This document shows positions 1 to 37,349 of a stretch of DNA of 44,495 nucleotides, piece after piece; position 1 is the stretch's first letter; the number at the start of each line of letters is the position of its first letter. Under the pieces are notes generated by a model. That model made no database searches and had not been told where the DNA came from. It was given only the letters and a program-made list of their open reading frames with translations. Made by a program: the position numbers and the translations under genes. Source of the DNA: Ignavibacteria bacterium (GTDB taxonomy: Bacteria; Bacteroidota; Ignavibacteria; Tepidaquicellales; Tepidaquicellaceae); contig JABAQZ010000021.1 of NCBI GenBank assembly GCA_019187405.1, forward strand, positions 1 through 44,495, written 5' to 3'.

Positions 1-38
1 ACAGAAAAAATTTTTTTAACATTTTTTTCTTTTTTCAG

Positions 39-60
39 CCACTCCCCCTAGGGGGAGTGG
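39..60. repeat. GC-rich perfect palindrome
   Basis: A 22-bp perfect inverted repeat with arms CCACTCCCCC and GGGGGAGTGG around TA, in otherwise very AT-rich DNA. A second small hairpin (GACA-TGG-TGTC) follows at 61-71. No T-run follows directly on either strand, so it is a poor fit to an intrinsic terminator. It could be another REP-like element. Confidence 0.5.
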
Positions 61-347
61 GACATGGTGTCATCCTCATTCACATTTCTTTTATTTTATC
101 ATTTACACAAAATTTTTTACACTCCCGTATAATTTAGTAATTCTTTAATTGAATAATGTTGTATCGTTTTTAATCAACGTATTTTGGTTTTGGAAAGTCA
201 GAATTTTTTTAAATGCTTATTTTTAATTTGTAGAGAAATTTTAATAATTTTTCATTTAGGACGGATGAAATTTAATTTTCGTAATATGCTGAATAGAAAA
301 AATAAGGATAAGAAGAGGTAATTTTGGGTGAATTTGGGGTGTTGGGG
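61..347. other. AT-rich intergenic stretch, nothing recognised
   Basis: No supported gene, RNA or promoter seen. The DNA is A/T-rich and leads into the palindrome array starting at 348. Confidence 0.4.
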
Positions 348-626
348 GAAACCGTTTAAACGGTTTCTTTGTCCGATTGCCCGGGGATGCGACATCTACC
401 ACAGTACTTCTCAGAAACCGTTTAAACGGTTTCTGCCCCCTTCGCACAGAGATGTGTTACACCCCCGCAGCATTCAGAAACCGTTTAAACGGTTTCTGCC
501 TCCGATTGCACAGAGATGCGACATCTCCCAAAGCGCTTCTCAGAAACCGTTTAAACGGTTTCTACCCCCCTTCGCACAGAGATGTGTTACACCCCTGCAG
601 CATTCAGAAACCGTTTAAACGGTTTC
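348..626. repeat. CRISPR-like array of a 20-bp palindrome with alternating homologous spacers
   Basis: Five perfect copies of GAAACCGTTTAAACGGTTTC start at 348, 414, 477, 543 and 607. They are separated by 46, 43, 46 and 44 bp. The middle copies extend to CAG...CTG. Spacers 1 and 3 resemble each other (both contain CCGATTGC and GATGCGACATCT) and spacers 2 and 4 are nearly identical (both contain TTCGCACAGAGATGTGTTAC). The real unit is therefore a ~129-bp AB dimer repeated twice. No cas genes are near, and repeated spacers are not expected of a CRISPR array. The palindrome centre GTTTAAAC is preserved in every copy. Apparent small reading frames here, with recurring KPFKRF peptides, are repeat translations. 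Confidence 0.85.
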
Positions 627-834
627 TCCAACACCGCTCAAAACAACAAAATCCATTTTTTCACAAATCGCATTTTTTACCATTTGACAATTCTGTGGTT
701 TATCTTTAGCTTGAATGCAAATTGATTTTAAGTTCATTCAAAAATCTGTATGAATAGAGCTATTGTTGACAATGAATAGATTTAATAATTTTTTAAAATA
801 TTAACTTAGTATATATTTTCTCAAAATAATTTTT

Positions 835-2973
835 ATGAGAAACATAAAAATACAAATTTACATTCTGTTTATTGTAATTTTCCTTCCGGTCATCGGAGTA
901 AATGCACAATCAAGCTGGTTCTGGCTGCAACCACTGCCGACTGGCGCAACGCTTAACTCGGTTGACTTCTGGGACAGAAATACAGGATATACCTGCGGCA
1001 AAGCCGGAACGGTCACCAAGACAACTAACGGCGGATTGAACTGGGTGTTGCTGGGACAAATAACATCTTTGAATTTAACTGACATCGAATGCATTAATTT
1101 AAATACTTGCATTGTTGTTGGTGACAGCGGATATATAGCAAAGACAACAAATGGAGGATTGAACTGGGTAGTTGTCCCAAGCGGAGTACCGGGTATTTTA
1201 CTGGATGTTGATTTTCCGACAGCAAATACCGGATATATAAGCGGTGCATCCGGCAAAGTACTAAAATCAACAAACGGTGGAGCTAACTGGATAGCACAAA
1301 ATGCTGGAGTATCATCAACATTATTTCATGTATCATTCATAAATCCGTTAAAAGGCGCGATGGCAGGAATAAATAATATCTATACTACAACAAACGGTGG
1401 AAATAATTGGACGATACATCATTTGGGAACATTCTTTGATTATTTTCCTTCAGTACAGTATTTAAATGATTCTACTATATATGGTCTATTTCTTTCTTTT
1501 GCAACAACCAAAGTATTTATTTCAAAAAACAGCGGAGTAAGTTGGGATTCATTTACAGTAAATAGAGTTATTTCAAATGATCTTTCAAGAGCATTTAGGT
1601 TTAAGGATGAAACAACGGGATTTATTGTTACTCAATACGGAGATATATATAAAACATTAAATAGTGGAGTAAACTGGTTCAGAGATACTTCATTTACACC
1701 AGAGAATCCGGATTCGGATGTATTTTTAGATATAAATACAACCGAACAGAATTATTTTTATGCAGTTGGTTCAGGGGGAGTAATAGTAAATACGACAAAC
1801 ACGGGTGAACATTGGCAAAGACAGACAGGAGTTCAGGAGACATACAACGACGTATTTTTTATAGGTGAAAATACCGGTTATACAGTTGGAGAAAAAGGAA
1901 TATTGAAAAAGACGACAGATGCCGGGTACAGTTGGAACAGAATAAACCTAAATACAAGTCTTGGAATAAAGAAAATAGTCTTTACCGATTTAAATACGGG
2001 ATACTTATGCGGAGATTCAGGACTTGTGATGAAAACAAATAATGGAGGAATGAATTGGAAAAATCAAAACACACCTGCAGGAGATACGGGATTTACGAGT
2101 TTAAACTTTATCGATAGCAATCAAGGATTTATTGGAACAAATAATGGATCAATTTATAAAACTACTAATTCAGGAATAAATTGGGTACACAATTTTACTA
2201 CAAGTTATGGAGGAGGTGTTTTTCATGATATTGATTTTTATGATGAAACAAATGGAGCAGTTGCCTCAGATATAGCAATTTATTTAACAACAAATTCTGG
2301 AGAAAGTTGGAATTCCACATTATTTCCTTTCAGTGTATTAAATTCAATTGAATATATAGATACTTTAATAATTATATCAGGTGGTTTTAATAGTGAAAGC
2401 CCGTTAATAATAAAATCAACGAACGGAGGAATAAACTGGTTTAACCAGAGTGTATCACATATAATAACTTCAATTCAGTTTCTGGATAATAACTACGGAA
2501 TGTTGTGCGGATATAATGGAAAAATCTCAAAGACGACAAACGGAGGATTAAACTGGATACTTCTTCCTGGAACAGCCACAGAAAGACTTAATTCTATATA
2601 TTTTGTCAATTCCAATACAGGATATTCTGTCGGCATAGCAGGACAAATAATAAAGACAACCAATGGGGGGTTGTCTTTTATAAACAATAATCAAACAATT
2701 AAGACCGATGATTATAGATTATATCAGAATTATCCAAATCCTTTTAATCCATCTACACAAATTAAGTATTCATTAAATAAATCGTCAACAGTTATGATAA
2801 AAGTACATGACATATCAGGAAGAGAAGTGAACACAATACTAAATCAATACAAACAGCCCGGAGTGTACATTGAAACATTTAACGCCATTAATCTTTCAAG
2901 CGGAATATATTTCTACACTTTATACACAGACGGATTGCAAGTTAGTACAAAGAAGTTTATACTGTTGAAGTAA
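835..2973 (+). CDS. Secreted Ycf48/BNR-type beta-propeller protein with T9SS C-terminal signal
   Basis: A 712-residue exported protein. Residues 1-24 form a signal peptide (basic start, hydrophobic core, cleavage after VNAQ). The body holds 14 copies of an Asp-box-like motif, typically K-T-T-N-G-G-x-N-W, spaced about 40-50 residues apart. This is typical of Ycf48/BNR-like propellers, where each motif marks a blade turn. From about residue 628 to the end is a canonical Por/T9SS type A sorting domain: NYPNPFNPST, then a KVHDISGREV strand, a GVY turn, SSGIYFYTL, and a final KKFILLK. Such proteins cross the outer membrane by the type IX system and are attached to the surface or released. No catalytic residues are recognisable, so the role is probably adhesive or structural. 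The ATG at 835 lacks a Shine-Dalgarno site, but it directly precedes the signal peptide. Confidence 0.85.
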   Translation: MRNIKIQIYILFIVIFLPVIGVNAQSSWFWLQPLPTGATLNSVDFWDRNTGYTCGKAGTVTKTTNGGLNWVLLGQITSLNLTDIECINLNTCIVVGDSGYIAKTTNGGLNWVVVPSGVPGILLDVDFPTANTGYISGASGKVLKSTNGGANWIAQNAGVSSTLFHVSFINPLKGAMAGINNIYTTTNGGNNWTIHHLGTFFDYFPSVQYLNDSTIYGLFLSFATTKVFISKNSGVSWDSFTVNRVISNDLSRAFRFKDETTGFIVTQYGDIYKTLNSGVNWFRDTSFTPENPDSDVFLDINTTEQNYFYAVGSGGVIVNTTNTGEHWQRQTGVQETYNDVFFIGENTGYTVGEKGILKKTTDAGYSWNRINLNTSLGIKKIVFTDLNTGYLCGDSGLVMKTNNGGMNWKNQNTPAGDTGFTSLNFIDSNQGFIGTNNGSIYKTTNSGINWVHNFTTSYGGGVFHDIDFYDETNGAVASDIAIYLTTNSGESWNSTLFPFSVLNSIEYIDTLIIISGGFNSESPLIIKSTNGGINWFNQSVSHIITSIQFLDNNYGMLCGYNGKISKTTNGGLNWILLPGTATERLNSIYFVNSNTGYSVGIAGQIIKTTNGGLSFINNNQTIKTDDYRLYQNYPNPFNPSTQIKYSLNKSSTVMIKVHDISGREVNTILNQYKQPGVYIETFNAINLSSGIYFYTLYTDGLQVSTKKFILLK

Positions 2974-2989
2974 ATTAAGTCTAAATCAC

Positions 2990-3034
2990 GGATTAAACCG
3001 ATTACACCGATTATACTGATTAAATAAGATTAAT
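2990..3034. repeat. 9-bp tandem repeat (GATTA-type)
   Basis: Five consecutive 9-mers: GGATTAAAC, CGATTACAC, CGATTATAC, TGATTAAAT, AAGATTAAT. They begin 17 bp after the stop of the preceding gene. A degenerate relative (CTGATTAGA, CGAATTACA, CTAATTAAG) lies near 3578-3604. The reverse complement of this 9-mer also underlies the larger array at 3110-3478. Confidence 0.7.
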
Positions 3035-3109
3035 ACAAAAAATTTCTAAACTGAGATCATATACGTTACTAACCTGAAGTTTCAAAGGAATAGAATAGTA
3101 TAGACAACC

Positions 3110-3478
3110 AATCCGTGTAATCACTTAATCCGTGCAAATCCGTGATTCAGACAATAAACAGCCAAAGCAAATTCCGGACTCTAATCCGTGTAATCACTTA
3201 ATCCGTGCAAATCCGTGATTCAGACAAATAAACAGCCAAATCAAATTCCAGACAACTAATCCGTGTAATCACTTAATTCATGCAAATCCGTGATTCAGAC
3301 AATAAACAGCCAAATCAAATTCCGGACTCCAATCCGTGCAATCACTTAATCCGTGCAAATCCGTGATTCAGACAAATAAACAGAAAAATCAAATTCCAGA
3401 CAACCAATCCGTGCAATCACTTAATCCGTGCAAATCCGTGATTCAGACTAATAAAACAACCAAAGCAAGTAATCAAAA
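3110..3478. repeat. Tandem array of five 73/75-bp units
   Basis: Units start with AATCCGTG at 3110, 3183, 3258, 3331 and 3406, giving alternating periods of 73, 75, 73 and 75 bp. Units 1 and 3 carry the linker CCGGACTC, and units 2 and 4 carry CCAGACAAC, so the higher-order unit is a 148-bp dimer. Each unit contains four AATC-rich 8-9-mers (AATCCGTGT, AATCACTT, AATCCGTGC, AAATCCGTG). No open reading frame is supported. Confidence 0.85.
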
Positions 3479-3977: not shown

Positions 3978-6095
3978 CTAAGGCGTAATAGTCGAAACAA
4001 AATTCGCTGAATTATTTTCAGCTATTAATGCATCGCTTGCATCAATCACTTCATCGCCGTTTAAATCCGTCGGTAGATAACCTATTTCAAAATTTGACGC
4101 AGCATTGTCAATCTCACCATTATCTGTTGCATCAACTACTCCATCCTGATTTACATCACCGCTGTAGAATCCATAAATTGAAATGAAACCATTATCAAAA
4201 ATTTTCTTTGAATTATTTCCGTAAGTATTTGCCTGTGGCCAGAATGAATATGACTTTTCATAAGATGTAAATGTAATTGTTCCCGAACTCCAGGATTCAA
4301 GCGCATTCCTGTGTTTAATCTGAATAAAATACGGAGTATTGTAAGGAGTATTGCTGAAGATAAATTCATTCGTCAAAATATCCCCAAGCACATTCTTTGA
4401 AGAATCAACTACATTATATGGAGAAATATTACTTCTTAGATAAACTCTGATCGTATCGGGAATAACATTATTCGTTACAGGATTGTATAAACCTTCAATC
4501 GCTGCACTTATTTTCAATTTGGCAAAAGATTGCACCGTTCCAGTACATCCTGAACTGCTCCACAACCCGTGCTTCGTAGTATCTGCCCAAATCGCAAAGC
4601 AATTTTCACTACCGCTATTGAGTCTTATTCCGGCTTTTGGGTTATTGTTATTCACCAAATGACTGAAATTATTTAAATTCACAGAACTCCAGATGTAAGA
4701 ATCTGTTTGATGATATTTTATTGTTGACGGAAATGTATTTGCGTAAGCTACGGCAAATTCACCCGGAGCGTTTACTTGTCCGATGACTTCCGCATCGGTG
4801 CCGACATCACTTGTGCTGTAATCTACAAAACCCTGTACCCAGCCGGCAGTGCCGTTTGTAGAACGGTAATATTCCACATCATGATCAGTTGCCGAGTATT
4901 CGTTAATAACTGAGATCATCAGATTGTTATACCCTCCGTTTGAGGCAACAAATCCTCTCGATCTTTTATTATTTCCCGGTGTGTTAACATTTATTGTCCC
5001 GATATACGAAACGTACGGATTGTTTGTAAGATATGAAAATATCGGAGCGCTCCCAATCACGATGGCGGAATTCGAAGCAAGACCTGTCTCGACTAAAAGT
5101 ATCCCATACTCCGAACCATTTTTGTAATATGCAATGTCACAATTAAAATAATCAGCCCAACCATAATAACCATTACTGACTGTTCTCATAAAGCTGCTGG
5201 TTCTGTATGTGATCGACGGAGTAGTCGTATATGGACTGTAGCACATTGCAACTTTTTCACCCTGTGCCGCCGGATCGGGAAAACTATATGAACTGTCAAA
5301 ACTTGCAACTAAATAAATATACGGTGAATTTGAAAAATCAGGATTGTCAGAGACAATTCTCGGAGTTTTGTAATGCACAAAAGGACCGCCCGGCCAGTTT
5401 AATATAGAATTGCTAACTGTTCCGTTATTAAGATTTACAATAAACAATCCAATCTGTGTCCAGGAATTAACATATGTTGCAAATGTAACCCAAAGATATT
5501 TTTCATTTGTTGAGCTGATAATTAATTCGGCATCCATTTGTTTGTCGGTGGTAAAGATCTGATTTCCCCCGAAGCTGTATATACCAAAATTATTCCAGCT
5601 GATGCCGTTATCATCTGAATATTTTAAGCCGATACCGTCAGGATTATAAGGAGCAAAATCCGGATAATAGCCATAAACACTCCATATTCTTCCGATGTTA
5701 TTTCCTGAATGCTCTGTGCAAGTCGCCATCGATAGAATGCCTTTATCATTTGAATTTGTAATGCTGTTCATCACAATGTTATCTGCTTCTTCTTGCGAAA
5801 GCTTTTTGATTTCCATTTGTGAGGGAACGCTTGTGTGAGTTCCGGTGATTCTGTCAGACTCATTTTGAAGTCTTTTTATTTCTTCTTTGTTATCAGACAG
5901 CTTTGCAGCTTTCATTTTATTTTCGAAATCAATTATCTCTTTTGATGGAGACGGTTGATTTTGCTGGTTTAAATTAATATGAGCATCAATTTTTACCGGA
6001 GCCTGCATTTCACCTTCATAATTTTTTTTGTCCTGAGATAAAACATAGACATTGAAAAATAGTAATACTGTTAAAACAATTATAGATTTATTCAT
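3978..6095 (-). CDS. Secreted sialidase/BNR-like protein with C-terminal dockerin-like module
   Basis: A 705-residue exported protein. Residues 1-20 form a signal peptide, with likely cleavage after VLSQ. Residues about 30-115 are charged and probably helical. Residues about 120-520 look like a beta-propeller, with motifs such as KYSDDNGISWNNFG and YYRSTNGTAGW that resemble sialidase Asp-boxes. I see no confident catalytic set, so enzymatic activity is not claimed. Residues about 530-705 are the shared module of this window: GLYN, a KHRNALESWSSG signature, then calcium loops GDVNQDGVVDATD and TDLNGDEVIDASD, ending in ITP. It lies 24 bp downstream of the small exported protein at 6120-6497 and is probably co-transcribed with it. 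The start ATG has no Shine-Dalgarno site. Confidence 0.8.
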   Translation of the reverse strand: MNKSIIVLTVLLFFNVYVLSQDKKNYEGEMQAPVKIDAHINLNQQNQPSPSKEIIDFENKMKAAKLSDNKEEIKRLQNESDRITGTHTSVPSQMEIKKLSQEEADNIVMNSITNSNDKGILSMATCTEHSGNNIGRIWSVYGYYPDFAPYNPDGIGLKYSDDNGISWNNFGIYSFGGNQIFTTDKQMDAELIISSTNEKYLWVTFATYVNSWTQIGLFIVNLNNGTVSNSILNWPGGPFVHYKTPRIVSDNPDFSNSPYIYLVASFDSSYSFPDPAAQGEKVAMCYSPYTTTPSITYRTSSFMRTVSNGYYGWADYFNCDIAYYKNGSEYGILLVETGLASNSAIVIGSAPIFSYLTNNPYVSYIGTINVNTPGNNKRSRGFVASNGGYNNLMISVINEYSATDHDVEYYRSTNGTAGWVQGFVDYSTSDVGTDAEVIGQVNAPGEFAVAYANTFPSTIKYHQTDSYIWSSVNLNNFSHLVNNNNPKAGIRLNSGSENCFAIWADTTKHGLWSSSGCTGTVQSFAKLKISAAIEGLYNPVTNNVIPDTIRVYLRSNISPYNVVDSSKNVLGDILTNEFIFSNTPYNTPYFIQIKHRNALESWSSGTITFTSYEKSYSFWPQANTYGNNSKKIFDNGFISIYGFYSGDVNQDGVVDATDNGEIDNAASNFEIGYLPTDLNGDEVIDASDALIAENNSANFVSTITP

Positions 6096-8585: not shown

Positions 8586-11500
8586 TCACGGAACAACCTT
8601 CGCCACAAAATTCGCTGCATTATTGTCCCCTATCGCTGCATCAGTTGCATCGACCAAATCGTCTCCGGTAATATCGGTATTAACATAACCGCTTACAAAA
8701 TTAGATGCATCATTATCGATTGCTCCTGCATCCGTTGCCTCAACTACTCCATCCTGATTTACATCGCCGCTGTACACTGCAAATCGAACTGGTGATGTGT
8801 CAACCTGTTTCATATTATTTCCAAATGCCTGAGACGAAGAATTCGAAAAATCATAATTCACCGAGCCGCCTCTTGTCACCGAAATTCCGCTTGCAGTCCA
8901 TGTCTCGATGCTGTTTCTGTGTGTTAAAACTAAATAATATGTTCCGCTTGATGCATTCCCGAATTTCAATGTAACACTTCCATTAGATGAAACAACTGCC
9001 ATTGACTGATCAGCAATTGAATATGGATAAAGATTATTTCTCAAATAAGCTGTAATTGTATCACTGACTTGTGAATTCGCACCTGCATTGTAAAATCCTT
9101 CGATGAACATTGTTGCATTAACAGTAATATTCGGGCTTTCTGCAACTGCAACCGGACTAAGATTATTATGAATATCCTGCGCAACGATATAGTAGTAATA
9201 GATTCCGCTCATCGGAGATGTATCGAGAAATGTTGAATCAGTTGTTTCAGCATATACCGGCTCTGTATTAGGATCTATAGTCGGTGAAGCGCTCCTATAA
9301 AGTATATAGTTTTTCAAGTCCAGCGCGGAATTTCTTCCCCAGTTAAGTCTTACATCTGCACCTGACTGAGAAGCAGTAAATGGGCTTACCATCGGAGGCG
9401 AGATATTATCGATACTTCTGCCTGAGAGAATTGCCGATTCCCAATAAGTACCCGGGTTACTTGTTCTTGCCCTGATTTTATAAAATAAGTTCCCATTATT
9501 TCCCGATAAGGAATCAAATGGTGTAGAGGCAGTATAAGTATAAAACGAATGTTGAGATGGCGTAATGGTTGCAATTTCTTCCCATGAAAAATTTCCGCCA
9601 CTCGGAGGATAGCTCCTGAATACTGAATAGTTTGAAATTGTGCTGTTCCCGTAAGAATCAAAACTGCTTCGTGCCCACTTTATATTAACCTTTCCTCCCT
9701 GATCAAAAGGAATATCTCTTACATAAAGTAAAATTGGTTTTGCTGATATTGCGGAACCAAAATAAAGATGCGCTTTTCCTGTTTGTGTATAATATCCATA
9801 TGCTCCAACGATTAAGTCAGAGTAACCGTCACCGTTTGGATCGCCGGCTGATGACACTGATGCTCCGAAGAAATTGTTTGCCGATTCACCTGTCATAATT
9901 ACATCTGCTTCATTGTTTACGGAAGTTCCGCCAAAATACAAATATGATCTTCCTGTACCTGAATTAAATAAGTGCGCACCGGCGATTACATCAGAGTATC
10001 CGTCGCCATTCACATCTCCGGCATCGGAGACTGAATATCCAAGTCTATCTCCTACTGCCTCTCCCGTAAAAATAATGTCTTCCGTATTATTCATTGGCGT
10101 TCCTCCAAAGTAAATACATGCTTTGCCTGTAAAATTGGCATATCCTAATGCACCGATTATCACGTCTTGAAATCCGTCCCGATTTACATCTCCAGCATTT
10201 GAAATAGAATATCCAAAGTAGATATTTGTAGCCTCGCCTGTCATAACTACATCTGCAGTGTTATTAACAGATGATCCTCCATAGTAAAGATAAACTCTTC
10301 CTGTATATGAATTATACACATAAGCTCCGGCGATTACATCAGAGTATCCGTCTGCATTTACATCACCGGCAGAGGAAACAGAAGCTCCAAATCTATTGCC
10401 TGTAGCTTCTCCGGTCATATTAACATCTGCGATATTGTCCATCGTTGCACCGCCAAAATAAACGTATGCCCTGCCTGTATTGGAAGTATATCCGTATGCT
10501 CCGGCGATTACATCAGAATATCCGTCGCCATTCACGTCGCTGGCATCGGAGACTGAAAGTCCAAAATAGTTTAACGTTGCTTCGCCTGTTATTATTACGT
10601 CTGCGGTATTATCTATTGATGTTCCACCAAAATAAATATATGCCCTGCCAGTACTGGAAGAATATCCATACGCGCCGATTATTACATCGGAGTAACCGTC
10701 GCCGTTTACATCGCCGGCTGAAGCAGTTGAATTACCAAAGAAATTGCTTGAAGACTCGCCCGTCATTACCACATCCGAAATGTTATCCATTGAAGCTCCA
10801 CCAAAAAATATATATGCTCTGCCGGTGGATGAAGAATATCCCGGTGATCCTATAATTACATCGGAATATCCATCACCGTTTACATCACCGGCAGAAGCGA
10901 CAGAAATTCCAAAGTTGTTGAATGTCGCACCGCCTGTCATACTTAAATCGGACACAATCTCGTTCCTCATGAAATAGTCGAAAATATATGCTCTGCCGGT
11001 GGATGAAGAATATCCCGGTGATCCTATAATTACATCGGAATATCCATCTCCGTTTACGTCCTCCGCTGAAGATACTGAAGCTCCGAAATAATCGCCTGAT
11101 ATTTCGCCTGTCAAAATTACATCTGCAGTATTATTCATTGATGCTCCGCCGAAATATAAATATGCTCTGCCCTTACTGGAAACGTATCCGTATGCCCCTA
11201 TGATTACATCAGAGTATCCGTCGCCGTTCACATCACCAGCGACAGTGACCGAGCATCCAAAAAAATTGCTTAATGCTTCGCCCGTAAAATCTACATCAGC
11301 TGTATTATCCATGCTGGTTCCTCCCAAAAAAAGATATGCTTTACCTATATAGGAAGAATATCCTTCTGCTCCGACAATGACATCAGAGTACCCGTCGCCA
11401 TTCACATCGCCTGCTGAATTTACTGAAATTCCAAAGCGATTGTTCGCAGCTTCGCCTGTCATAATTACGTCAGCAGAATTATTCATTGAAGTTCCACCGA

Positions 11501-12401
11501 AGTATAAATATACTCTGCCTGTTGAAGAAGTATAACCGTAAGCTCCAATAATTACATCAGAGTACCCGTCACCGTTCACGTCGCCGGCAGATGAGACTGA
11601 AGCTCCAAAGTAACTTGCTGTTTCAGGGTTAAAAATAACATCTGCAGTATTATCCATTGTTTCTCCACCATAAAAAAGATATGATCTGCCGGTATTACCG
11701 TTATATGCACTTGCCCCTATGATTATATCAGAATAACCGTCACCATTTACATCGCCGGCTGAGGTCAATGATATACCAAAGTTGTTGAGAATTCCCTCGC
11801 CTGTAAAAATCACATCGGCGGCATTATTCATTGTTGGTCCTCCGAAATAAATGTATGCCCTGCCTTTACTGGAAGAATATCCTAACGCTCCGACGATTAC
11901 ATCCGAGTAGCCGTCACCGTTTACATCACCAGCTGAAGATACACTGTATCCAAAGTCGTTGTTTATCGCTTCTCCCGTCAAAACAATATCTGCAACGGTA
12001 TTTATAACTGTTCCTCCAAAATAAATATAAGCTCTGCCGGTATAGGATGCATATATGTAAGCTCCGACAATAATATCAGTGTATCCGTCGCCGTTTACAT
12101 CGCCTGCAGATGAGACCGATCTACCGAAACGCTCTCCTGCATTCATTCCGTTGAAGATTTTTCTCTGCATTGCATCGCCTTCATCTTCAATTATTTTATT
12201 TCCGTTTTCGTCGCGAAGAGAGTTAAGCCAGTCTCTTGTCACACCTGCAGGAAGTGAATCGGACTTTTGAGGCTGTGAATTTATTTCTTGCGGAAGTGAA
12301 TTGCTTCTATCGGATTTTAACCAGCTTGCATTTGCTAGTTCCGTAATTGTCAAATATATCCCAAGAAGCAAAATAACTTTGAAAAAGTAATTGTTCTTCA
12401 T
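8586..12401 (-). CDS. Secreted double seven-bladed FG-GAP propeller protein, tandem copy 1
   Basis: A 1,271-residue exported protein. Residues 1-26 form a signal peptide ending ANAS. Fourteen FG-GAP repeats occupy about residues 85-880, each with a calcium loop like GDVNGDGYSD, then I(I/V)GAYGY, GRAYIYFGG and TGEA. After the seventh repeat (about residue 475) the usual FGGxSMxN loop is replaced by DYFMRNEIVSD, splitting the repeats 7+7, as expected for two seven-bladed integrin-alpha-like propellers. Two FN3-like domains follow (about 885-1090), and the shared C-terminal module fills 1097-1271 (HRNSIETWT, two dockerin-like loops, final KVVP). It is a probable surface adhesin or binding protein. 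Blade 12 has GDVNRDG and blade 14 GDPNGDG, mild loop variants. It has a near-identical N-terminus, promoter and tail to the gene at 12675-16487, which points to recent duplication. Confidence 0.88.
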   Translation of the reverse strand: MKNNYFFKVILLLGIYLTITELANASWLKSDRSNSLPQEINSQPQKSDSLPAGVTRDWLNSLRDENGNKIIEDEGDAMQRKIFNGMNAGERFGRSVSSAGDVNGDGYTDIIVGAYIYASYTGRAYIYFGGTVINTVADIVLTGEAINNDFGYSVSSAGDVNGDGYSDVIVGALGYSSSKGRAYIYFGGPTMNNAADVIFTGEGILNNFGISLTSAGDVNGDGYSDIIIGASAYNGNTGRSYLFYGGETMDNTADVIFNPETASYFGASVSSAGDVNGDGYSDVIIGAYGYTSSTGRVYLYFGGTSMNNSADVIMTGEAANNRFGISVNSAGDVNGDGYSDVIVGAEGYSSYIGKAYLFLGGTSMDNTADVDFTGEALSNFFGCSVTVAGDVNGDGYSDVIIGAYGYVSSKGRAYLYFGGASMNNTADVILTGEISGDYFGASVSSAEDVNGDGYSDVIIGSPGYSSSTGRAYIFDYFMRNEIVSDLSMTGGATFNNFGISVASAGDVNGDGYSDVIIGSPGYSSSTGRAYIFFGGASMDNISDVVMTGESSSNFFGNSTASAGDVNGDGYSDVIIGAYGYSSSTGRAYIYFGGTSIDNTADVIITGEATLNYFGLSVSDASDVNGDGYSDVIAGAYGYTSNTGRAYVYFGGATMDNIADVNMTGEATGNRFGASVSSAGDVNADGYSDVIAGAYVYNSYTGRVYLYYGGSSVNNTADVVMTGEATNIYFGYSISNAGDVNRDGFQDVIIGALGYANFTGKACIYFGGTPMNNTEDIIFTGEAVGDRLGYSVSDAGDVNGDGYSDVIAGAHLFNSGTGRSYLYFGGTSVNNEADVIMTGESANNFFGASVSSAGDPNGDGYSDLIVGAYGYYTQTGKAHLYFGSAISAKPILLYVRDIPFDQGGKVNIKWARSSFDSYGNSTISNYSVFRSYPPSGGNFSWEEIATITPSQHSFYTYTASTPFDSLSGNNGNLFYKIRARTSNPGTYWESAILSGRSIDNISPPMVSPFTASQSGADVRLNWGRNSALDLKNYILYRSASPTIDPNTEPVYAETTDSTFLDTSPMSGIYYYYIVAQDIHNNLSPVAVAESPNITVNATMFIEGFYNAGANSQVSDTITAYLRNNLYPYSIADQSMAVVSSNGSVTLKFGNASSGTYYLVLTHRNSIETWTASGISVTRGGSVNYDFSNSSSQAFGNNMKQVDTSPVRFAVYSGDVNQDGVVEATDAGAIDNDASNFVSGYVNTDITGDDLVDATDAAIGDNNAANFVAKVVP

Positions 12402-12421
12402 GATGATTATAGTTAAAGTTT

Positions 12422-12451
12422 ATAAAATATTTTGCTTCCCGAACTTAACAA
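12422..12451 (-). promoter_or_regulatory. Candidate promoter of FG-GAP gene copy 1
   Basis: On the minus strand, TTG (12451-12449), a 19-bp spacer and TATTTTAT (12429-12422) resemble the Bacteroidota TTG-N19-TAnnTTTG pattern about 20 bp before the ATG. The same sequence occurs upstream of copy 2 at 16508-16537. Confidence 0.4.
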
Positions 12452-12534
12452 TTTTAATTCTAAAATTCAGTTTTTAAATATTGATTATTGAAAAGAAATT
12501 TCAATTTCTCTAAAATGTTTTTCTTCGTTCCCAC

Positions 12535-12642
12535 TGTGTCTTCTCATTTGTTTTAATATAAAATAACGAATTCATTCAAATTGCGGGGACACCGCGGAGA
12601 CGCAAAATATTGTAGAGATGCAAAATATTGCATCTCTACAAT
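12535..12642. repeat. Intergenic duplication unit, copy 2, with hairpin
   Basis: Second copy of the block downstream of a tandem FG-GAP gene, here shortened (no CGGGGCTGGGAAATATATTT stretch). The terminal hairpin is intact: ATTGTAGAGATGC at 12609-12621, loop, and its complement at 12630-12642. It lies 32 bp beyond the stop of the gene at 12675-16487 and may terminate its transcript. Confidence 0.7.
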
Positions 12643-12674
12643 TGATAATTAATAATTAAAAATTGATAATTGAA

Positions 12675-15600
12675 TCACGGAACAACCTTCCCCACAAAAT
12701 TCGCTGCATTATTGTCCCCTATCGCTGCATCAGTTGCATCGACCAAATCGTCTCCGGTAATATCAGTATTCAAATAACCGCTTACAAAATTAGATGCATC
12801 ATTATCGATTGCTCCTGCATCCGTTGCATCAACGACTCCATCCTGATTTACATCGCCGCTGTACACTGCAAATCGAACTGGCGATAAATCAACCTGCTTC
12901 ATATTATTTCCAAATGCCTGAGACGAAGAATTCGAAAAATCATAATTCACCGAGCCGCCTCTTGTCACCGAAATTCCGCTTGCAGTCCATGTCTCGATGC
13001 TGTTTCTGTGTGTTAAAACTAAATAATATGTTCCGCTTGTAGCATTCCCGAATTTCAATGTAACACTTCCATTAGATGAAACAACTGCCATTGACTGATC
13101 AGCAATTGAATATGGATAAAAATTATTTCTCAAATAAGCTGTAATTGTATCACTGACTTGTGAATTCGCACCTGCATTATAAAAACCTTCGATGAACATT
13201 GTTGCATTAACAGTAATATTCGGACTTTCTGCAACTGCAACCGGGCTAAGATTATTATGAATATCCTGTGCAACTATAAAGTAGTAATACAAACCGCTCA
13301 AAGGTGAAGTATCGAGATAAGTCGAATCACCAAGAGTTGCAATAGGTGTTTCAGTGTAGGGATCAATGGTCGGCAAAGTGCTTCTGAATAAAACATAATT
13401 CATCAGATCCGGTGCTGTGCTTCGTTCCCAGTAGAGCCGTACATTGCTTGCTTCCGATACTGCCGTAAAAGGTGATACCATAAGAGGAGCTATGTTGTCA
13501 ATACTGTGTCCCGATAAAATACCTGACCTCCAGTATTGCGAGGCTATTGAAGTTCTCGCAGTGATTCTGAAATAGAATGTCCCGCTGGAAAGAGATGAAG
13601 AGTCATAAGGGGTTGACGCTGTGTATGTATAGAATGGTTCGTTTGTAGCAGGAATGAAGGATATGTTTTCCCATGAGAAATTGCCTCCGGACGGAGGATA
13701 GCTGCGCTGAACAACATAATCTGTAATCACGTTAATACCATAAACATCGTAGCTGCTTCTCGCCCATTTCAAATGTAAATAACCTCCCTGATCATTCGGT
13801 ACATCTTTCACATAATTCAAAATCGGCTTTGCGCTTATTGCCGAGCCAAGATAAATGTAAGCTTTACCTGTATTGCTGCTGTATCCGCGAGCCCCGGCAA
13901 TTAAATCAGAATATCCGTCACCGTTTACATCACCGGCAGAGGATACTGAAATACCAAAATAATTATTTATGGCTTCTCCTGTCATTGTAACATCAGCGAT
14001 ACTGTTCATACTTACTCCTCCAAAAAAAATGTATGCTCTGCCGGTACTGCTGCTGTATCCATAAGCCCCGACAATTACATCTAAATATCCGTCACCGTTT
14101 ACATCGCCGGCGTCGGATACATAATTTCCAAAATAATTATCTATTGCTTCTCCTGTCATTGTTACATCTGCAACATTGTCCATACTAACTCCTCCAAAGT
14201 AAATGTATGCTCTGCCGGTATTGCTGCTGTATCCACGAGCCCCGGCAATTAAATCAGAATATCCGTCTCCGTTTACATCACCGGCTTCGGATACTGAAAT
14301 TCCAAAAAAATTACCTGTTGCTTCTCCTGTCATTGTTACATCTGCAAGATTGTTCATACTTACTCCTCCAAAGAAAATGTATGCTTTGCCTGTAGAGCTG
14401 CTGGCATAAGCTCCGACAATCACATCAGAATAACCGTCTCCGTTTACATCTCCGGCAGAGGATACTGAATATCCAAAATTATTATTTACAGCTTCTCCTG
14501 TCATAGTTACATCTGATGCATTATTCATACTTGCCCCTCCATAGTATATGTATGCTCTGCCGGTATTGCTGCTGTATCCATAAGCCCCGACAATTACATC
14601 TGAATATCCGTCACTATTTACATCACCGGCTTCGGATACTGAACCACCAAAATAAGTTAATGTCGCTTCTCCGGTCATTGTTACATCTGCAATATTGTTC
14701 ATGCTTACTCCTCCAAAGAAAATGTATGCTCTGCCTGTAGAGCCGCTGGGTCCATAAGCCCCGACAATTACATCTGAATATCCGTCACCGTTTACATCGC
14801 CGGCTCCGGATACTGAAATGCCAAAAATAAAACCTACAGCTCCTGTCATTATAACATCTGCGATATTATTCATGCTTGCTCCACCAAAGAAAATGTATGC
14901 TCTGCCGGTATTGCTGCTGTATTGATAAGCCCCGACAATCACATCTGAATATCCGTCACCGTTTACATCACCGGCTTCGGATACTGAATATCCAAAATAA
15001 TTATTTGCTACTTCGCCTGTCATATCAAGATCTTGAGTGATTTCTCCATTCATGAAATAGTCATATAAATATGTTCTGCCGGTATTACCCGTGTATCCAT
15101 AAGCTCCGACAATTACATCCGAATATCCGTCTCCGTTTACATCTCCGGCAGAGGATACTGAATATCCAAAATAATTATTTGCTGCTTCTCCTGTCATTGT
15201 AATATCAGCGATACTGTTCATGCTTGCTCCTCCAAAGAATATGTATGTTTTGCCGGTAGAACTGCTGTATCCATAAGCCCCGGCAATTACATCTGAATAT
15301 CCGTCACCGTTTATATCACCGGCTTCGGATACATAATTTCCAAAATAATTATCTATTGCTTCTCCTGTCATTGTTACATCTGCGATGCTATTCATAATTG
15401 CTCCTCCAAAGTAAATATATGCTCTGCCGGTAGAAGTGCTGTATCCATTAGCCCCGACAATTACATCTGAATATCCGTCACCGTTTACATCGCCGGCTGT
15501 AGAAACTGAATAACCAAATAAATCAGATGTCGATTCTCCTGTCATTGTAACATCCGCGATACTATTCATGCTTGCTCCTCCTAAGTAAATATATGCTCTG

Positions 15601-16487
15601 CCGGTACTACTGCTGTATGCATAAGCTCCTATAATCACATCTGAATATCCGTCACTGTTTACATCACCTGCTTTGGATACTGAATAGCCAAAATAATTAT
15701 TTGCGGTCTCGCCTATCATTGTTAGATCTGAGAGATTGTTCATGTTTGTTCCTCCAAAATAAATATATGCACTGCCTGTATTGCCAGTGTATCCAAGAGC
15801 CCCTGCAATTACATCCGAATATCCGTCACCGTTTACATCACCGGCTGTTGATACTGAACGACCAAAAAAATCATTTGCTGCTTCTCCTGTCATTGTTACA
15901 TCAATAATATTGTTCATGCTTACTCCACCAAAGAAAATGTACGCTCTGCCGGTAAAGCTGCTGTATCCATTAGCTCCGATAATTACATCAGAATATCCGT
16001 CACCGTTTACATCGCCTGCTTCGGATACTGAAATTCCAAAATAATTATTTGTTGCTTCTCCTGTCATTGTTAAGTCTGCAACTGTATTCATACTAAGTCC
16101 TCCGTAGAAGATATAAGCTCTGCCGGTATTTGAACTAAAGAATGATGCTCCTATGACGATATCATCATATCCGTCCCCGTTTACATCACCTGCAGTTGAA
16201 ACCGAATAGCCGAATTGATCCCCTGTATTCAAACCATTAAATATTTTTCTCTGCATTGCATCGCCTTCTTCTTCAATTATTTTATTTCCGTTTTCGTCGC
16301 GAAGAGAGTTAAGCCAGTCTCTTGTCACACCTGCAGGAAGTGAATCGGACTTTTGAGGCTGTGAATTTATTTCTTGCGGAAGTGAATTGCTTCTATCGGA
16401 TTTTAACCAGCTTGCATTTGCTAGTTCCGTAATTGTCAAATATATCCCAAGAAGCAAAATAACTTTGAAAAAGTAATTGTTCTTCAT
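12675..16487 (-). CDS. Secreted double seven-bladed FG-GAP propeller protein, tandem copy 2
   Basis: A 1,270-residue paralogue. The first ~85 residues (signal peptide and SDSLPAGVTRDWLNSLRDEN spacer) are almost identical to the protein of 8586-12401. Fourteen FG-GAP repeats run from about residue 88 to 880, with the DYFMNGEITQD blade-7 variant at about residue 477 dividing them 7+7. Two FN3-like segments and the C-terminal module (about 1097-1270, ending GKVVP) follow. Blades 6 and 13, seven apart, share the unusual FGNYVS start, and blades 12 and 14 share DLIAGARGYSSNTG, signs of blade copying. Repeats differ far more between paralogues than the ends do. Likely a calcium-dependent surface adhesin; the ligand is unknown. 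Confidence 0.88.
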   Translation of the reverse strand: MKNNYFFKVILLLGIYLTITELANASWLKSDRSNSLPQEINSQPQKSDSLPAGVTRDWLNSLRDENGNKIIEEEGDAMQRKIFNGLNTGDQFGYSVSTAGDVNGDGYDDIVIGASFFSSNTGRAYIFYGGLSMNTVADLTMTGEATNNYFGISVSEAGDVNGDGYSDVIIGANGYSSFTGRAYIFFGGVSMNNIIDVTMTGEAANDFFGRSVSTAGDVNGDGYSDVIAGALGYTGNTGSAYIYFGGTNMNNLSDLTMIGETANNYFGYSVSKAGDVNSDGYSDVIIGAYAYSSSTGRAYIYLGGASMNSIADVTMTGESTSDLFGYSVSTAGDVNGDGYSDVIVGANGYSTSTGRAYIYFGGAIMNSIADVTMTGEAIDNYFGNYVSEAGDINGDGYSDVIAGAYGYSSSTGKTYIFFGGASMNSIADITMTGEAANNYFGYSVSSAGDVNGDGYSDVIVGAYGYTGNTGRTYLYDYFMNGEITQDLDMTGEVANNYFGYSVSEAGDVNGDGYSDVIVGAYQYSSNTGRAYIFFGGASMNNIADVIMTGAVGFIFGISVSGAGDVNGDGYSDVIVGAYGPSGSTGRAYIFFGGVSMNNIADVTMTGEATLTYFGGSVSEAGDVNSDGYSDVIVGAYGYSSNTGRAYIYYGGASMNNASDVTMTGEAVNNNFGYSVSSAGDVNGDGYSDVIVGAYASSSTGKAYIFFGGVSMNNLADVTMTGEATGNFFGISVSEAGDVNGDGYSDLIAGARGYSSNTGRAYIYFGGVSMDNVADVTMTGEAIDNYFGNYVSDAGDVNGDGYLDVIVGAYGYSSSTGRAYIFFGGVSMNSIADVTMTGEAINNYFGISVSSAGDVNGDGYSDLIAGARGYSSNTGKAYIYLGSAISAKPILNYVKDVPNDQGGYLHLKWARSSYDVYGINVITDYVVQRSYPPSGGNFSWENISFIPATNEPFYTYTASTPYDSSSLSSGTFYFRITARTSIASQYWRSGILSGHSIDNIAPLMVSPFTAVSEASNVRLYWERSTAPDLMNYVLFRSTLPTIDPYTETPIATLGDSTYLDTSPLSGLYYYFIVAQDIHNNLSPVAVAESPNITVNATMFIEGFYNAGANSQVSDTITAYLRNNFYPYSIADQSMAVVSSNGSVTLKFGNATSGTYYLVLTHRNSIETWTASGISVTRGGSVNYDFSNSSSQAFGNNMKQVDLSPVRFAVYSGDVNQDGVVDATDAGAIDNDASNFVSGYLNTDITGDDLVDATDAAIGDNNAANFVGKVVP

Positions 16488-16507
16488 GGTGATTATAGTT
16501 AAAGTTT

Positions 16508-16537
16508 ATAAAATATTTTGCTTCCCGAACTTAACAA
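16508..16537 (-). promoter_or_regulatory. Candidate promoter of FG-GAP gene copy 2
   Basis: Sequence identical to that at 12422-12451 (TTG, 19-bp spacer, TATTTTAT on the minus strand), at the same distance from the ATG. About 130 bp upstream of both genes is nearly identical, so the two copies should be expressed alike. The third copy (start at 20634) has an unrelated upstream region. Confidence 0.4.
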
Positions 16538-16610
16538 TTTTAATTCTAAAATTCAGTTTTTAAATGTTGATTATTGAAAAGAAATTTCAATTTCTCTAAA
16601 ATGTTTTCCT

Positions 16611-16750
16611 TCGTTCCCGCTGTGTCCCCTCATTTGTTTTTATATAAAATAACGAATTCATTCAAATTGCGGGAATACAGCGGGGCTGGGAAATATATTT
16701 GCAAAAACGCAAAAATATTGTAGAGACGCGGAATATTGCATCTCTACAAT
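16611..16750. repeat. Intergenic duplication unit, copy 3, with degenerate hairpin
   Basis: Third copy of the block downstream of a tandem FG-GAP gene. The hairpin at 16717-16750 is weakened: the left arm reads ATTGTAGAGACGC against GCATCTCTACAAT on the right. It lies 32 bp beyond the stop of the gene at 16783-20634. Confidence 0.65.
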
Positions 16751-16782
16751 TGATAATTAATAATTAAAAATTGATAATTGAA

Positions 16783-19700
16783 TCACGGAACAACCTTCGC
16801 CACAAAATTCGCTGCATTATTTTCCCCTATCGCTGCATCAGTTGCATCGACCAAATCGTCTCCGGTAATATCGGTATTAACATAACCGCTTACAAAATTA
16901 GATGCATCATTATCGATTGCTCCTGCATCCGTTGCCTCAACTACTCCGTCCTGATTTACATCGCCGCTAAAAATGGCAAAGCGTACAGGCGAGGTATCAA
17001 CCTGTTTCATATTATTTCCGAATGCCTGAGATGAAGAATTCGAAAAATCATAATTCACCGAGCCGCCTCTTGTCACCGAAATTCCGTTTGCACTCCATGT
17101 CTCGATGCTGTTTCTGTGTGTTAAAACTAAATAATATGTTCCGCTTGATGCATTCCCGAATTTCAATGTAACACTTCCATTAGATGAAACAACTGCCATT
17201 GACTGATCAGCAATTGAATATGGATAAAGATTATTTCTCAAATAAGCTGTAATTGTATCACTGACTTGTGAATTCGCACCTGCATTGTAAAATCCTTCGA
17301 TGAACATTGTTGCATTAACAGTAATATTCGGGCTTTCTGCAACTGCAACCGGGCTAAGATTATTATGAATATCCTGTGCAACGATGAAGTAATAATACAA
17401 ACCGCTCAAAGGTGAAGTATCGAGATAAGTCGAATCACCAAGTGTTGCAAAAGGTGTTTCAGTGTAAGGGTCAATCGTTGGTGAGGTGCTTCTGAATAAA
17501 ATGTAGTTCATAAGATCTGGCGCATTACTTCGCTTCCAATTGAGACGGACATTGCTTGCTTCCGATACTGCCGTAAAGGGTGATACCATAAGAGGAGCAA
17601 TATTGTCAATGCTCCTTCCATAGAGAATATTGGATCGCCAGAAAACTGACGGATCAGATGTTCTCGCAGTTACTCTGAAATAAAAATTTCCGGTTGCAGC
17701 GGATGAAGAATCAAAGGGAGTACTAACATTATAAGAATAAAAAGAATTCTTAACTGCTGAAATAATTCCTGAAGGTATCCATGCAAAGTTACCGCCTGTT
17801 GGAGGGTAACTCATTTCTAAATAATAGTCAGTTATGGTATTATTTCCGATTACATCGAAGCTGCTCCTCGCCCATTTCAAATATACATAACCTCCCTGAT
17901 CATTCGGTACATCTTTCACATAATTCAAAATCGGTTTTGCGCTTATTGCCGAGCCGAAATAGGTATAAGCCTTCCCAGTGTTGCTGCTGTAACCATTAGC
18001 CCCATTAATTACGTCTGAAAATCCGTCACCGTTTACATCACCGGCTGTGGAGACCGAAGTTCCAAAATAATTGCCTGTTGTTTCACCGTTCATTGTTACA
18101 TCTGAAATATTATTCATGCTCGAGCCTCCAAGATAAATGTATGCCCTACCGGTGGTGATGCTGTAAGCATAAGCCCCGACAATTACATCAGAGTATCCGT
18201 CTGCATTTACATCACCGGCTGTGGATACTGATATGCCAAAATAATCATTTGTTACTTCTCCGGTCATTGTTACATCAGCTGTAGTGTTCATACTAGTTCC
18301 TCCAAAGAATATGTATGCTTTACCGGTATAAGCGCTACTTCCATAAGCGCCAACAATGACATCAGAATGTCCGTCTCCGTTTACATCGCCGGCTTCGGAT
18401 ACTGAATAGCCAAAGAGAATATTAGTAGCTTCGCCTGTTATAACCAAATCTGCGGTATTATTCATGCTTGTCCCTCCAAAGTAAATGTATGTTCTTCCAG
18501 TATAGCTGCTGTAACCATAAGCCCCGACAATTACATCTGAATAACCGTCACCGTTTACATCTCCGGCTGTTGAAACTGATTTTCCAAAAAAATTATTAGC
18601 AGCTTCGCCTGTAATCGTTACATCTGATGCATTATTCATACTTGCACCTCCATAGTATATGTATGCTCTGCCGGTATTACTACTGTATGCATAAGCCCCG
18701 ACAATTACATCTGTATATCCGTCACCGTTTACATCGCCGGCAGTGGATACCGAAGAAGCGAAGAAACTTGTTGATCCGCCTGTCAATACTAAATCGGCAA
18801 TATTATTCATGGTCATTCCTCCATAGAATATGTATGCTCTGCCAATGTTAGAATTATAGCCATAAGCTCCGACTATTACATCAGCATATCCGTCTCCGTT
18901 TACATCGCCGGCAGTGGATACTGAACAACCAAAATAATTACTTACTGCTTCTCCAATCATAGTAACATCTGCAGTATCATTCATGCTGATTCCTCCAAAG
19001 AATATATATGCTTTTCCTGTAGAGGAATTATTTCCATAAGCCCCGACAATTATATCAGCATATCCGTCACTGTTTACATCTCCGGCTTCGGATACCGAAA
19101 ATCCAAAATAATTATTTGTTGTATCACCCGTCACAGCAATATCAGATACAATTTCTCCTTTCATAAAATAGTCATACAGATAAACTCTGCCTACATTACT
19201 AGCATAATTATAAGCCCCGACAATTATATCAGAATATCCGTCGCCATTTACATCACCGGCTGTAGAGACTGAATAACCAAATGCAGAACTGGTTGATTCA
19301 CCCGTCAATATTGCATCTATTGTATTGTTCATGCTAACTCCTCCAAAGTAAATGTATGTTCTTCCGGTAAAGTTGCTGTAACCATAAGCCCCGACAATTA
19401 CATCTGAATAACCGTCACCGTTTACATCTCCGGCTGTTGAAACTGATTTTCCAAAAAAATTATTAGTAGCTTCGCCTGTAATCGTTACATCTGATGCATT
19501 ATTCATACTTGCACCTCCATAGTATATGTATGCTCTGCCGGTAGAAGTGCTGTATCCATTAGCCCCGATAATTACATCATCATATCCGTCACCGTTTACA
19601 TCGCCGGCTGTGGAGGCAGATTTGCCAAAATAATTATTTACTGCTTCCCCGGCCATTGTTACATCGGCAGTATTGTTCATGCTTGCTCCTCCAAAATAAA

Positions 19701-20634
19701 TATATGCTTTGCCGGTACTGCCGTTGTAACCGGAAGCGCCGATAATCACATCAGCAAACCCGTCACCGTTTACATCACCGGTTGTGGAAACTAAAATGCC
19801 AAAATTATTACCTGATGCTTCTCCCGTCATTGTTACATCGGCAGTACTGTTCATGCTTGCTCCTCCAAAATAAATGTACGCTCTGCCGGTATAACTGCTG
19901 TATTCATAAGCTCCTATAATTACATCAGAATACCCGTCACCGTTTACATCACCAGCTTTGGAAACTGAAGCGCCAAAATAATTAGATGATGCTTCTCCCG
20001 TCATTATTACATCTGCAATATTGTTCATGCTTGCTCCTCCAAAATAAATGTACGCTCTGCCGGTAGAGCTGCTGTATCCTGATGCGCCGACAACTACATC
20101 AGCGTATCCATCACCGTTTACATCACCGGCAGCGGATACAGATTCGCCAAAAAAATTACCTAATGCTTCTCCAGTTATTGTTATATCTGCAACCGTATTC
20201 ATATTAAGTCCGCCGTAAAAGATACAAACCCTGCCGGTAAAGCCATTATAAAAATACGCACCAATGATAATATCATCATATCCGTCGTTGTTCACATCAC
20301 CTGCTGTTGATATAGAGCAACCGAAATGCTCTCCTGCATTCATTCCGTTGAAGATTTTTCTTTGCATTGCATCGCCTTCATCTTCGGGAATGATCTTGTT
20401 TCCGTTTTCATCACGAATATTATTCATCCATTCTTTGGTTACTCCTGCAGGCAGAGAATCGCTATTGGAATAATTTCTTCCACCAATGGTTGTATTTGCC
20501 TTGTCTTCGCGAAACAATTTGCCTGCCTTTGACATTGAATAATCGCCGCTTATCAATCCGGCAATCGAAATATCAGATGAAATAAGTATTAGAATTAAGG
20601 TACAAAATAAAAAATTGTAAAAGTAAGTTTTCAT
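16783..20634 (-). CDS. Secreted double seven-bladed FG-GAP propeller protein, tandem copy 3
   Basis: A 1,283-residue protein, the first-transcribed position of the triplication. It has its own signal peptide (residues 1-26, different from the other two copies), then SDSLPAGVTKEWMNNIRDEN, which resembles theirs. Fourteen FG-GAP repeats lie at about residues 100-893, with DYFMKGEIVSD at about 489 after the seventh. Two FN3-like segments and the shared module (about 1108-1283, ending AKVVP) follow. DNA of the C-terminal third is nearly identical to the other two copies, while the N-terminus and upstream DNA are diverged. That pattern suggests gene conversion at the 3' end. Blades 5-6 and 10-11 are encoded by a 204-bp near-perfect direct repeat (18473-18676 and 19340-19543). 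Confidence 0.88.
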   Translation of the reverse strand: MKTYFYNFLFCTLILILISSDISIAGLISGDYSMSKAGKLFREDKANTTIGGRNYSNSDSLPAGVTKEWMNNIRDENGNKIIPEDEGDAMQRKIFNGMNAGEHFGCSISTAGDVNNDGYDDIIIGAYFYNGFTGRVCIFYGGLNMNTVADITITGEALGNFFGESVSAAGDVNGDGYADVVVGASGYSSSTGRAYIYFGGASMNNIADVIMTGEASSNYFGASVSKAGDVNGDGYSDVIIGAYEYSSYTGRAYIYFGGASMNSTADVTMTGEASGNNFGILVSTTGDVNGDGFADVIIGASGYNGSTGKAYIYFGGASMNNTADVTMAGEAVNNYFGKSASTAGDVNGDGYDDVIIGANGYSTSTGRAYIYYGGASMNNASDVTITGEATNNFFGKSVSTAGDVNGDGYSDVIVGAYGYSNFTGRTYIYFGGVSMNNTIDAILTGESTSSAFGYSVSTAGDVNGDGYSDIIVGAYNYASNVGRVYLYDYFMKGEIVSDIAVTGDTTNNYFGFSVSEAGDVNSDGYADIIVGAYGNNSSTGKAYIFFGGISMNDTADVTMIGEAVSNYFGCSVSTAGDVNGDGYADVIVGAYGYNSNIGRAYIFYGGMTMNNIADLVLTGGSTSFFASSVSTAGDVNGDGYTDVIVGAYAYSSNTGRAYIYYGGASMNNASDVTITGEAANNFFGKSVSTAGDVNGDGYSDVIVGAYGYSSYTGRTYIYFGGTSMNNTADLVITGEATNILFGYSVSEAGDVNGDGHSDVIVGAYGSSAYTGKAYIFFGGTSMNTTADVTMTGEVTNDYFGISVSTAGDVNADGYSDVIVGAYAYSITTGRAYIYLGGSSMNNISDVTMNGETTGNYFGTSVSTAGDVNGDGFSDVINGANGYSSNTGKAYTYFGSAISAKPILNYVKDVPNDQGGYVYLKWARSSFDVIGNNTITDYYLEMSYPPTGGNFAWIPSGIISAVKNSFYSYNVSTPFDSSSAATGNFYFRVTARTSDPSVFWRSNILYGRSIDNIAPLMVSPFTAVSEASNVRLNWKRSNAPDLMNYILFRSTSPTIDPYTETPFATLGDSTYLDTSPLSGLYYYFIVAQDIHNNLSPVAVAESPNITVNATMFIEGFYNAGANSQVSDTITAYLRNNLYPYSIADQSMAVVSSNGSVTLKFGNASSGTYYLVLTHRNSIETWSANGISVTRGGSVNYDFSNSSSQAFGNNMKQVDTSPVRFAIFSGDVNQDGVVEATDAGAIDNDASNFVSGYVNTDITGDDLVDATDAAIGENNAANFVAKVVP

Positions 20635-21430: not shown

Positions 21431-21462
21431 GCTCTTTCTCATAGTACATCTCGAGAAAGAGC
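21431..21462 (-). terminator. Intrinsic terminator after the LysM gene
   Basis: Perfect 10-bp stem GCTCTTTCTC (21431-21440) with GAGAAAGAGC (21453-21462) and a 12-nt loop. On the minus strand it lies 28 bp after the stop of the gene at 21491-21871 and is followed by TGTTTTATT. Confidence 0.6.
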
Positions 21463-21490
21463 AAAAAAATAATTTGTACCGCAAGGATAC

Positions 21491-22555: not shown

Positions 22556-22559
22556 AATC

Positions 22560-36669: not shown

Positions 36670-36741
36670 AAATTTGTCTTAGCATATTTATGCTATTTAC
36701 ATTTATTAATAAAGTTTTCATCTTCTCTTCAGATTGCTCTT

Positions 36742-37336: not shown

Positions 37337-37349
37337 CAACCCCACCTTT

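Follow-up and report, generated by a model that had tools for sequence, protein, structure and literature searches.

A REP-like palindrome family in an Ignavibacteria genome and its probable Y1 HUH/tyrosine transposase partner

In 'REPtrons', REP/BIME sequences are paired with RAYT (TnpA_REP) enzymes: the repeats are short hairpins that lie for the most part outside genes and downstream of them, occur singly and in tandem clusters with flanking DNA, and flank a low-copy Y1 HUH transposase gene (PMC3733652, PMC8266576, PMC6006769). According to the same sources, tandem growth of REPs with flanking DNA and the location of REPs downstream of genes are already known. A genome survey of TnpA_Y1 enzymes lists a subclass 1.2 with HUH, WQ and Y---Q--HH motifs, a median length of 148 aa and low copy number, and enters 'no' for REP (PMC6006769). 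Here we describe a palindrome family, P, first seen in the window, i.e., the whole 44,495-nucleotide stretch of Ignavibacteria DNA analysed. On sequence grounds, P is probably the REP-like palindrome of an enzyme encoded at C6:19299-19721 in the same genome, a Y1 HUH/tyrosine transposase of the type of TnpA_Y1 subclass 1.2.

The original prediction of five perfect 20-bp palindromes at 63-66-bp spacing was exact: copies of GAAACCGTTTAAACGGTTTC start at 348, 414, 477, 543 and 607, with start-to-start steps of 66, 63, 66 and 64. By chance, 0.03 matches to the 18-bp P core (at most 3 mismatches) are expected in the window, and 0 of 100 shuffles gave five. The array and its right-hand neighbourhood comprise the following features.

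348-367, no strand: palindrome P1, 20-mer; invariant 18-bp core at 349-366
368-413, no strand: spacer A1; 36/46 identical to A2
414-433, no strand: palindrome P2; core at 415-432, perfect 24-bp palindrome at 412-435
434-476, no strand: spacer B1; 41/44 identical to B2
477-496, no strand: palindrome P3; core at 478-495, perfect 24-bp palindrome at 475-498
497-542, no strand: spacer A2; spacer group also at C3 (2), C9, C16 and C21, with a close group at C7/C23
543-562, no strand: palindrome P4; core at 544-561
563-606, no strand: spacer B2; spacer group also at C9
607-626, no strand: palindrome P5; core at 608-625
628-834, + strand: intergenic leader upstream of the gene at 835; common to 6 other P-bearing places in the genome
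835-2973, + strand: gene for a 712-aa protein with YCF48/BNR-like repeats and a secretion sorting tail; member of a paralogous group, downstream of the array

All five palindromes are identical while A1 and A2 are 78% identical, bearing out the claim that the palindrome is kept as the spacers drift. The array had also been described as an AB dimer of about 129 bp. Alternate spacers are indeed homologous, and TRF reports periods of 66 and 129; however, a gapped alignment of A with B is also possible, giving 29 and 33 identities in roughly 46 nt, and we therefore read the array as a 65-bp monomer repeat with two spacer subtypes, in which 129 bp is a higher-order period. Because unrelated spacers are found at other loci, the AB dimer is local history and not the essence of the P family.

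The left flank of the array is AT-rich, and its right neighbour is the leader of the 712-aa secreted BNR-type protein gene. This leader has 8 matches in the genome including itself; 6 of the 7 others adjoin a P array, at 93-96% identity, and the remaining one spans 31 nt and has no P. With the leader as query, no alignable P-less copy and no empty site for a P insertion were found in the genome. The spacer type of the window is common to eight P loci, and within the paralogous group the arrangement P-A-P is present at C3 (two places), C7, C16, C21 and C23, with P-B-P-A-P at C9. On the reading that we favour, the window array is the copy carried within a multi-copy secreted-protein gene cassette and amplified to five P. 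A search of window positions 1-3000 against Rfam gave nothing above the gathering score; the best weak matches, such as Dictyoglomi-1 (E 0.004; 26.5 bits, where the gathering score is 150), were taken as chance.

P is a genome-wide repeat family with a near-invariant core. The core, AAACCGTTTAAACGGTTT, is a perfect 18-letter palindrome with 65 exact copies in the genome and 67 at up to 2 mismatches, compared with 0 exact and 1 at up to 2 mismatches for the reversed-pattern control. The 20-mer has 28 exact copies, so that it is not unique to the window locus, and the core is also present in relatives. The 65 exact cores fall into 25 loci, 20 with two to five P and 5 with a single P, although two of the solo loci (L025 and L155) have related sequences, lie at the ends of contigs and perhaps should not count as independent. 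As a many-copy, mostly intergenic palindrome, P resembles REPs. It lies in intergenic DNA or short doubtful ORFs at all loci except L030 (C23), where a solo P at 4655-4672 is read in frame (NRLNGF) directly after the signal peptide of a 578-aa protein in a real-looking ORF; by eye, this protein resembles a secreted metalloprotease. The exact core is found in 11 of 391 genomes of the class, and AAACCGTTNNAACGGTTT in 15 of 29 genomes of the family, at 1 to 66 copies. These counts include two exact, in-frame matches in the NRPS condensation domain of two relatives (L041 and L164); an insertion was considered and rejected, since the coded stretch fits what we take to be the usual motif of this domain, and the two are chance or coding matches.

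P is linked to one group of transposase genes, both physically, by flanking, and phylogenetically, in that gene group and palindrome track each other. The intact Y1 (HUH/tyrosine, IS200-like) gene at C6 encodes 141 aa and lies 26 nt from the first of three P, which are upstream; on its other side there is no P. In four relatives from two other genera (G097, G070, G239 and G103), the orthologous gene has P or a loop variant on both sides, as REPs do around their enzyme genes, with pairs 474-480 bp apart enclosing the Y1_Tnp gene (both copies exact, or one or both of them loop variants). In G103 the two P around the gene are loop variants, which are commoner there than the exact form. In the three g4 genomes the Y1 reading frame ends on a stop codon provided by the downstream P. 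The same neighbour, presumably an aminotransferase gene, follows the Y1 gene in 5 of 5 genomes of three genera (77% identity between G000 and G097), and the Y1 gene is, as far as synteny can tell, vertically inherited.

The C6 protein matches PF01797 at 1.9e-21, and its predicted model (pLDDT 88.5) matches the IS608 and ISDra2 transposases bound to hairpins as well as the REP-bound enzyme 4er8. The predicted fold would put it with IS200/IS605 enzymes in a hairpin-binding class. Unlike those elements, the P-flanked group has one intact gene in the window's genome, with synteny conserved across genera: at E≤1e-15 we saw one 100% match to the C6 protein and one 38% match with a stop, and no near-identical multicopy mobile elements of this type. 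Studied members of the HUH/tyrosine superfamily act as dimers on hairpins. The suggestion of a dimeric-nuclease target is accordingly plausible, given that P flanks a putative gene of the HUH/tyrosine single-stranded DNA endonuclease type.

A tree was built from 34 Y1 proteins of the family, none shorter than 130 aa, taken from the fetched part of the Y1 matches. With the P-flanked label defined by the flank itself, the 11 P-flanked proteins need 1 label change, against a mean of 9.4 when labels are shuffled (0 of 500 as low). Support for the 11-member group is 74/71, and for a five-member subgroup that includes the window's genome it is 100/99. A Fisher test of P count against presence of the P-flanked gene gave p 5e-7 at 5 or more copies, but is partly circular, ignores relatedness and is not used as proof. 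A strict hairpin-sharing test, with its threshold at the 95% point of 242 cross-locus pairs, gave the same palindrome to the left and right of 10 of 11 P-type genes and of 8 of 23 other Y1 genes of the family, the single P-type miss being the C6 gene of the window's genome. Among the other family Y1 genes, those at L170, L181, L195 and L210 have different short palindromes next to them in tandem, for instance ATCCCTTCGGGAT-like ones, which suggests that each Y1 gene group has its own repeat. By eye, the six more distant P-flanked members have outer CCCACGG-type hairpins enclosing the P-type ones. The correspondence between gene and palindrome has exceptions: G205 has 10 P loop variants in arrays, yet no Y1 match in its genome, and G235 has a relative of the C6 protein by identity alone (at least 40%), yet no P. 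In G205, at L216, L220 and L221, P loop variants and CCCACGG-type hairpins stand together in tandem arrays.

The NHVH (HUH) and WQ motifs of the C6 protein match those of subclass 1.2, to which we tentatively assign it by sequence; its YISNQSVYH follows the Y---Q pattern of this subclass with YH in place of HH. The 11 P-flanked proteins are 141-152 aa long, of low copy number, and have HUH, WQ and Y(F)---Q; the last motif reads Y---Q--YH in the window's genome, with HH in six relatives of genera g8 and g10, IH in one, and F---Q--YH in two. These two proteins (L040 1059-1511 and L201 900-1352) have Phe at the column aligned with the catalytic Tyr of IS608, and keep the gene with its flanking P; given this substitution, cleavage by them is doubtful. 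The enzymes of REPs belong to class 2 with YIxxNP, whereas the motif here is the class 1 Y---Q. The group also departs from the survey, which has REP as 'no' for subclass 1.2 (PMC6006769): here 11 members are flanked by P-type palindromes, and some others by palindromes of their own. A search of the open-access literature for P matched only CCGTTTAAACGG, and further searches gave no title on a REP family of Ignavibacteria or of subclass 1.2.

Several P arrays consist of the palindrome and copies of neighbouring DNA. Spacers differ between loci, and the 40 in the genome form 18 groups. In at least 8 arrays (L020, L021, L023, L031, L032, L152, L153 and L154), a spacer matches the immediate left or right flank better than 30 of 30 shuffles, and these spacers are often the last codons of the neighbouring gene; since the copied DNA is that of the flank, these arrays are, by sequence, tandem copies of P with local DNA. 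No spacer-flank match was found at L016 and L156, and a genome-wide search for a distant origin of the L016 spacer returned its own locus only. Tandem REP clusters with flanking DNA are already described (PMC3733652). We think it possible, though less likely than not, that P has no part in this growth, i.e., that intergenic DNA duplicates in tandem anyway and P is a passenger. In the 240 kb of the genome's own DNA that was read, P is missing from five tandem arrays of mostly noncoding DNA, and the window holds three of these. However, 11 of the 16 such arrays lie at P, and at least two P are present at 20 of the 25 P loci; the loci in these 240 kb were chosen for P, so that this association is suggestive only.

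Mapping P relative to genes, as had been proposed, places it mostly just past gene 3' ends, usually 8-80 nt beyond the stop codon by a simple ORF caller. At 14 loci with co-directional genes, P is nearer to the 3' end of the upstream gene in 12 (sign test 0.006, with paralogous loci that are not independent). Three other loci lie between convergent genes, 2 are divergent, 5 have a neighbour on one side only, and 1 is inside an ORF (L030). The P places read in relatives likewise lie mostly beside gene 3' ends, convergent pairs included. Three places are orthologous between species of one genus, and vertical inheritance therefore accounts for part of the distribution; at these places conservation can be separated from recent movement. 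At one of them, between genes that we take to be serS-like and nuoJ-like (proteins 91% and 90% identical), the core is unchanged and the arms are quite different between species, yet each is self-complementary; the others are L158/L090 and L042/L049.

Such a location would suit a bidirectional transcription terminator or an mRNA 3' hairpin with a conserved tip, with the transposase neighbourhood incidental. Its distance from stop codons, the co-directional and convergent pairs, and arms that are self-complementary but unconserved even between orthologous places would all be expected of such an element. We nevertheless regard this explanation as unlikely: no T-run follows P, a terminator scan did not list it, and a terminator has no need of an invariant 18-bp core. 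It also leaves unexplained the two-sided P around the same transposase in four relatives and the grouping in the tree.

P has hairpin arms that are locus-specific yet self-complementary. Outside the core, a mean of 4.0 of 6, 5.6 of 10 and 8.8 of 20 positions are complementary, compared with 2.45, 3.8 and 6.5 for left and right flanks paired across loci, and 0 of 1000 permutations reached the observed values. Seven chosen P hairpins fold better than shuffles (z -2.7 to -12.4), and the P copies of relative G103 differ solely in the bases at the centre or by double changes placed symmetrically. Arms that are symmetric yet vary from locus to locus, together with the double changes in G103, point to a hairpin in single-stranded DNA or RNA, and on these grounds we turn away from the cluster of double-stranded protein-binding sites that had been predicted. 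The perfect dyad, the near-invariant core and the clusters of 2-5 would fit cooperative binding of duplex P by a chromosome-organising or replication protein, but this reading explains neither the complementary arms nor the double substitutions, and P is absent from about half of the family (AAACCGTTNNAACGGTTT being in 15 of its 29 genomes); we rate it as very improbable. The regular spacing and identical palindromic repeats also recall a CRISPR or its remnant. As had already been said of the array, it is not one: the idea has negligible probability, since spacers are locally derived and recur within and between loci instead of being unique, and the repeats, including solo copies, are scattered over 25 loci and sit in tandem copies of local gene ends. 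Among 11 ORFs of the window scanned with Pfam, none matched a Cas family.

P differs from REPs in being fully self-complementary, so that it has no head or tail, and in its locus-specific arms. Within 12 nt of P, on either strand, GTAG is present at 4 of 25 loci, GTGG at 10 and CGTC at none, giving no conserved 5' tetranucleotide and no GTAG/CGTC foot. The commonest tetranucleotide in this range is GGGG (17 of 25 loci), which suggests that G-rich arms explain the GTGG count. Although P, in our judgement, works like a REP, two defining REP features, the guide tetranucleotide and the class 2 motif, are thus lacking, and we call P REP-like rather than a REP for this reason.

The reading of P as the partner of the Y1 transposase remains the one we favour. 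P exposed in single-stranded DNA would fold into a hairpin (on the lagging-strand template, as for IS200/IS605 and REP enzymes), which the transposase would bind and nick, and in this way P would once have been seeded at new sites. Repair or slippage would then have enlarged the arrays by duplicating P in tandem together with its flank. P may persist because transcript 3' ends tolerate its hairpin or benefit from it, or because the enzyme maintains it. It is from the pattern of sequences that we infer that P is cleaved, how it spread and what it does today. Counting against this reading are the P variants of G205 without Y1, the one-sided P at C6, the lack of a GTAG-type guide, the support of only 74/71 for the 11-member group with its label defined by the flank, the P places inherited vertically between species, the lack of an empty site among the copies of the leader, the Phe at the catalytic column in two relatives and the P-less tandem arrays in the same genome. 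If it is right, a transposase subclass left without a DNA partner by the genome survey gains a concrete candidate substrate, and P provides a natural case for testing how enzymes that cut hairpins recognise one with neither guide tetranucleotide nor orientation. P arrays also show how such repeats mimic CRISPR. A bolder and rather doubtful extension is that the 'REP-less' transposases of subclass 1.2 are a hidden REPtron class with symmetric, guide-less hairpins, and that the pair has been domesticated in this lineage: different species retain P at the same gene ends, its arms may be rewritten in concert by foldback copying, and the Tyr-to-Phe change in two relatives would suggest a role in binding hairpins, not cutting them, at transcript or gene ends.

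A contig scan across phyla gave at least 97 stretches with the 18-mer among the matches listed. A crude test on these matches used the sites with flanks of 70 nt and excluded 7 that were too short for this; 54 of the 94 sites had a hairpin on one side or both, versus 70 of 485 random positions. Many matches outside the class look like a different composite, with the palindrome between other hairpins, and are not taken as evidence for the P of the window. In Verrucomicrobia, Acidobacteria and Bacteroidetes (L055, L066, L092, L098, L102 and others), the 18-mer or its loop variants lie between two hairpins about 20 nt away, CCCACGG..CCGTGGG or CACCG..CGGTG, as a composite REP-like element. Loop variants can dominate in such genomes, e.g., in Cnuella with 37 of 39 matches at up to 1 mismatch. 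A contig from a Caldisericaceae bin (L097; 2191-2273 and 4782) carries a pair of P spaced 65 bp apart plus a third copy, by transfer or binning error, and two viral contigs (L149 at 4417 and L151 at 404) have one P each with identical flanks.

The window itself has further repeats. P-less tandem arrays lie at 3102-3468, 36736-36907, 37342-37709 and 43903-44377, with units of 75/148, 33/54, 31 and 20-84 bp, and those with units of 31-33 bp have TGTCATTCTGAGCGCAGCGAAGAA in common. On the minus strand, 8586-26468 encodes four consecutive FG-GAP repeat proteins, each 1270-1302 aa long, and a 600-aa relative adjoining them; DNA repeats of 174 bp occur inside some of the four.
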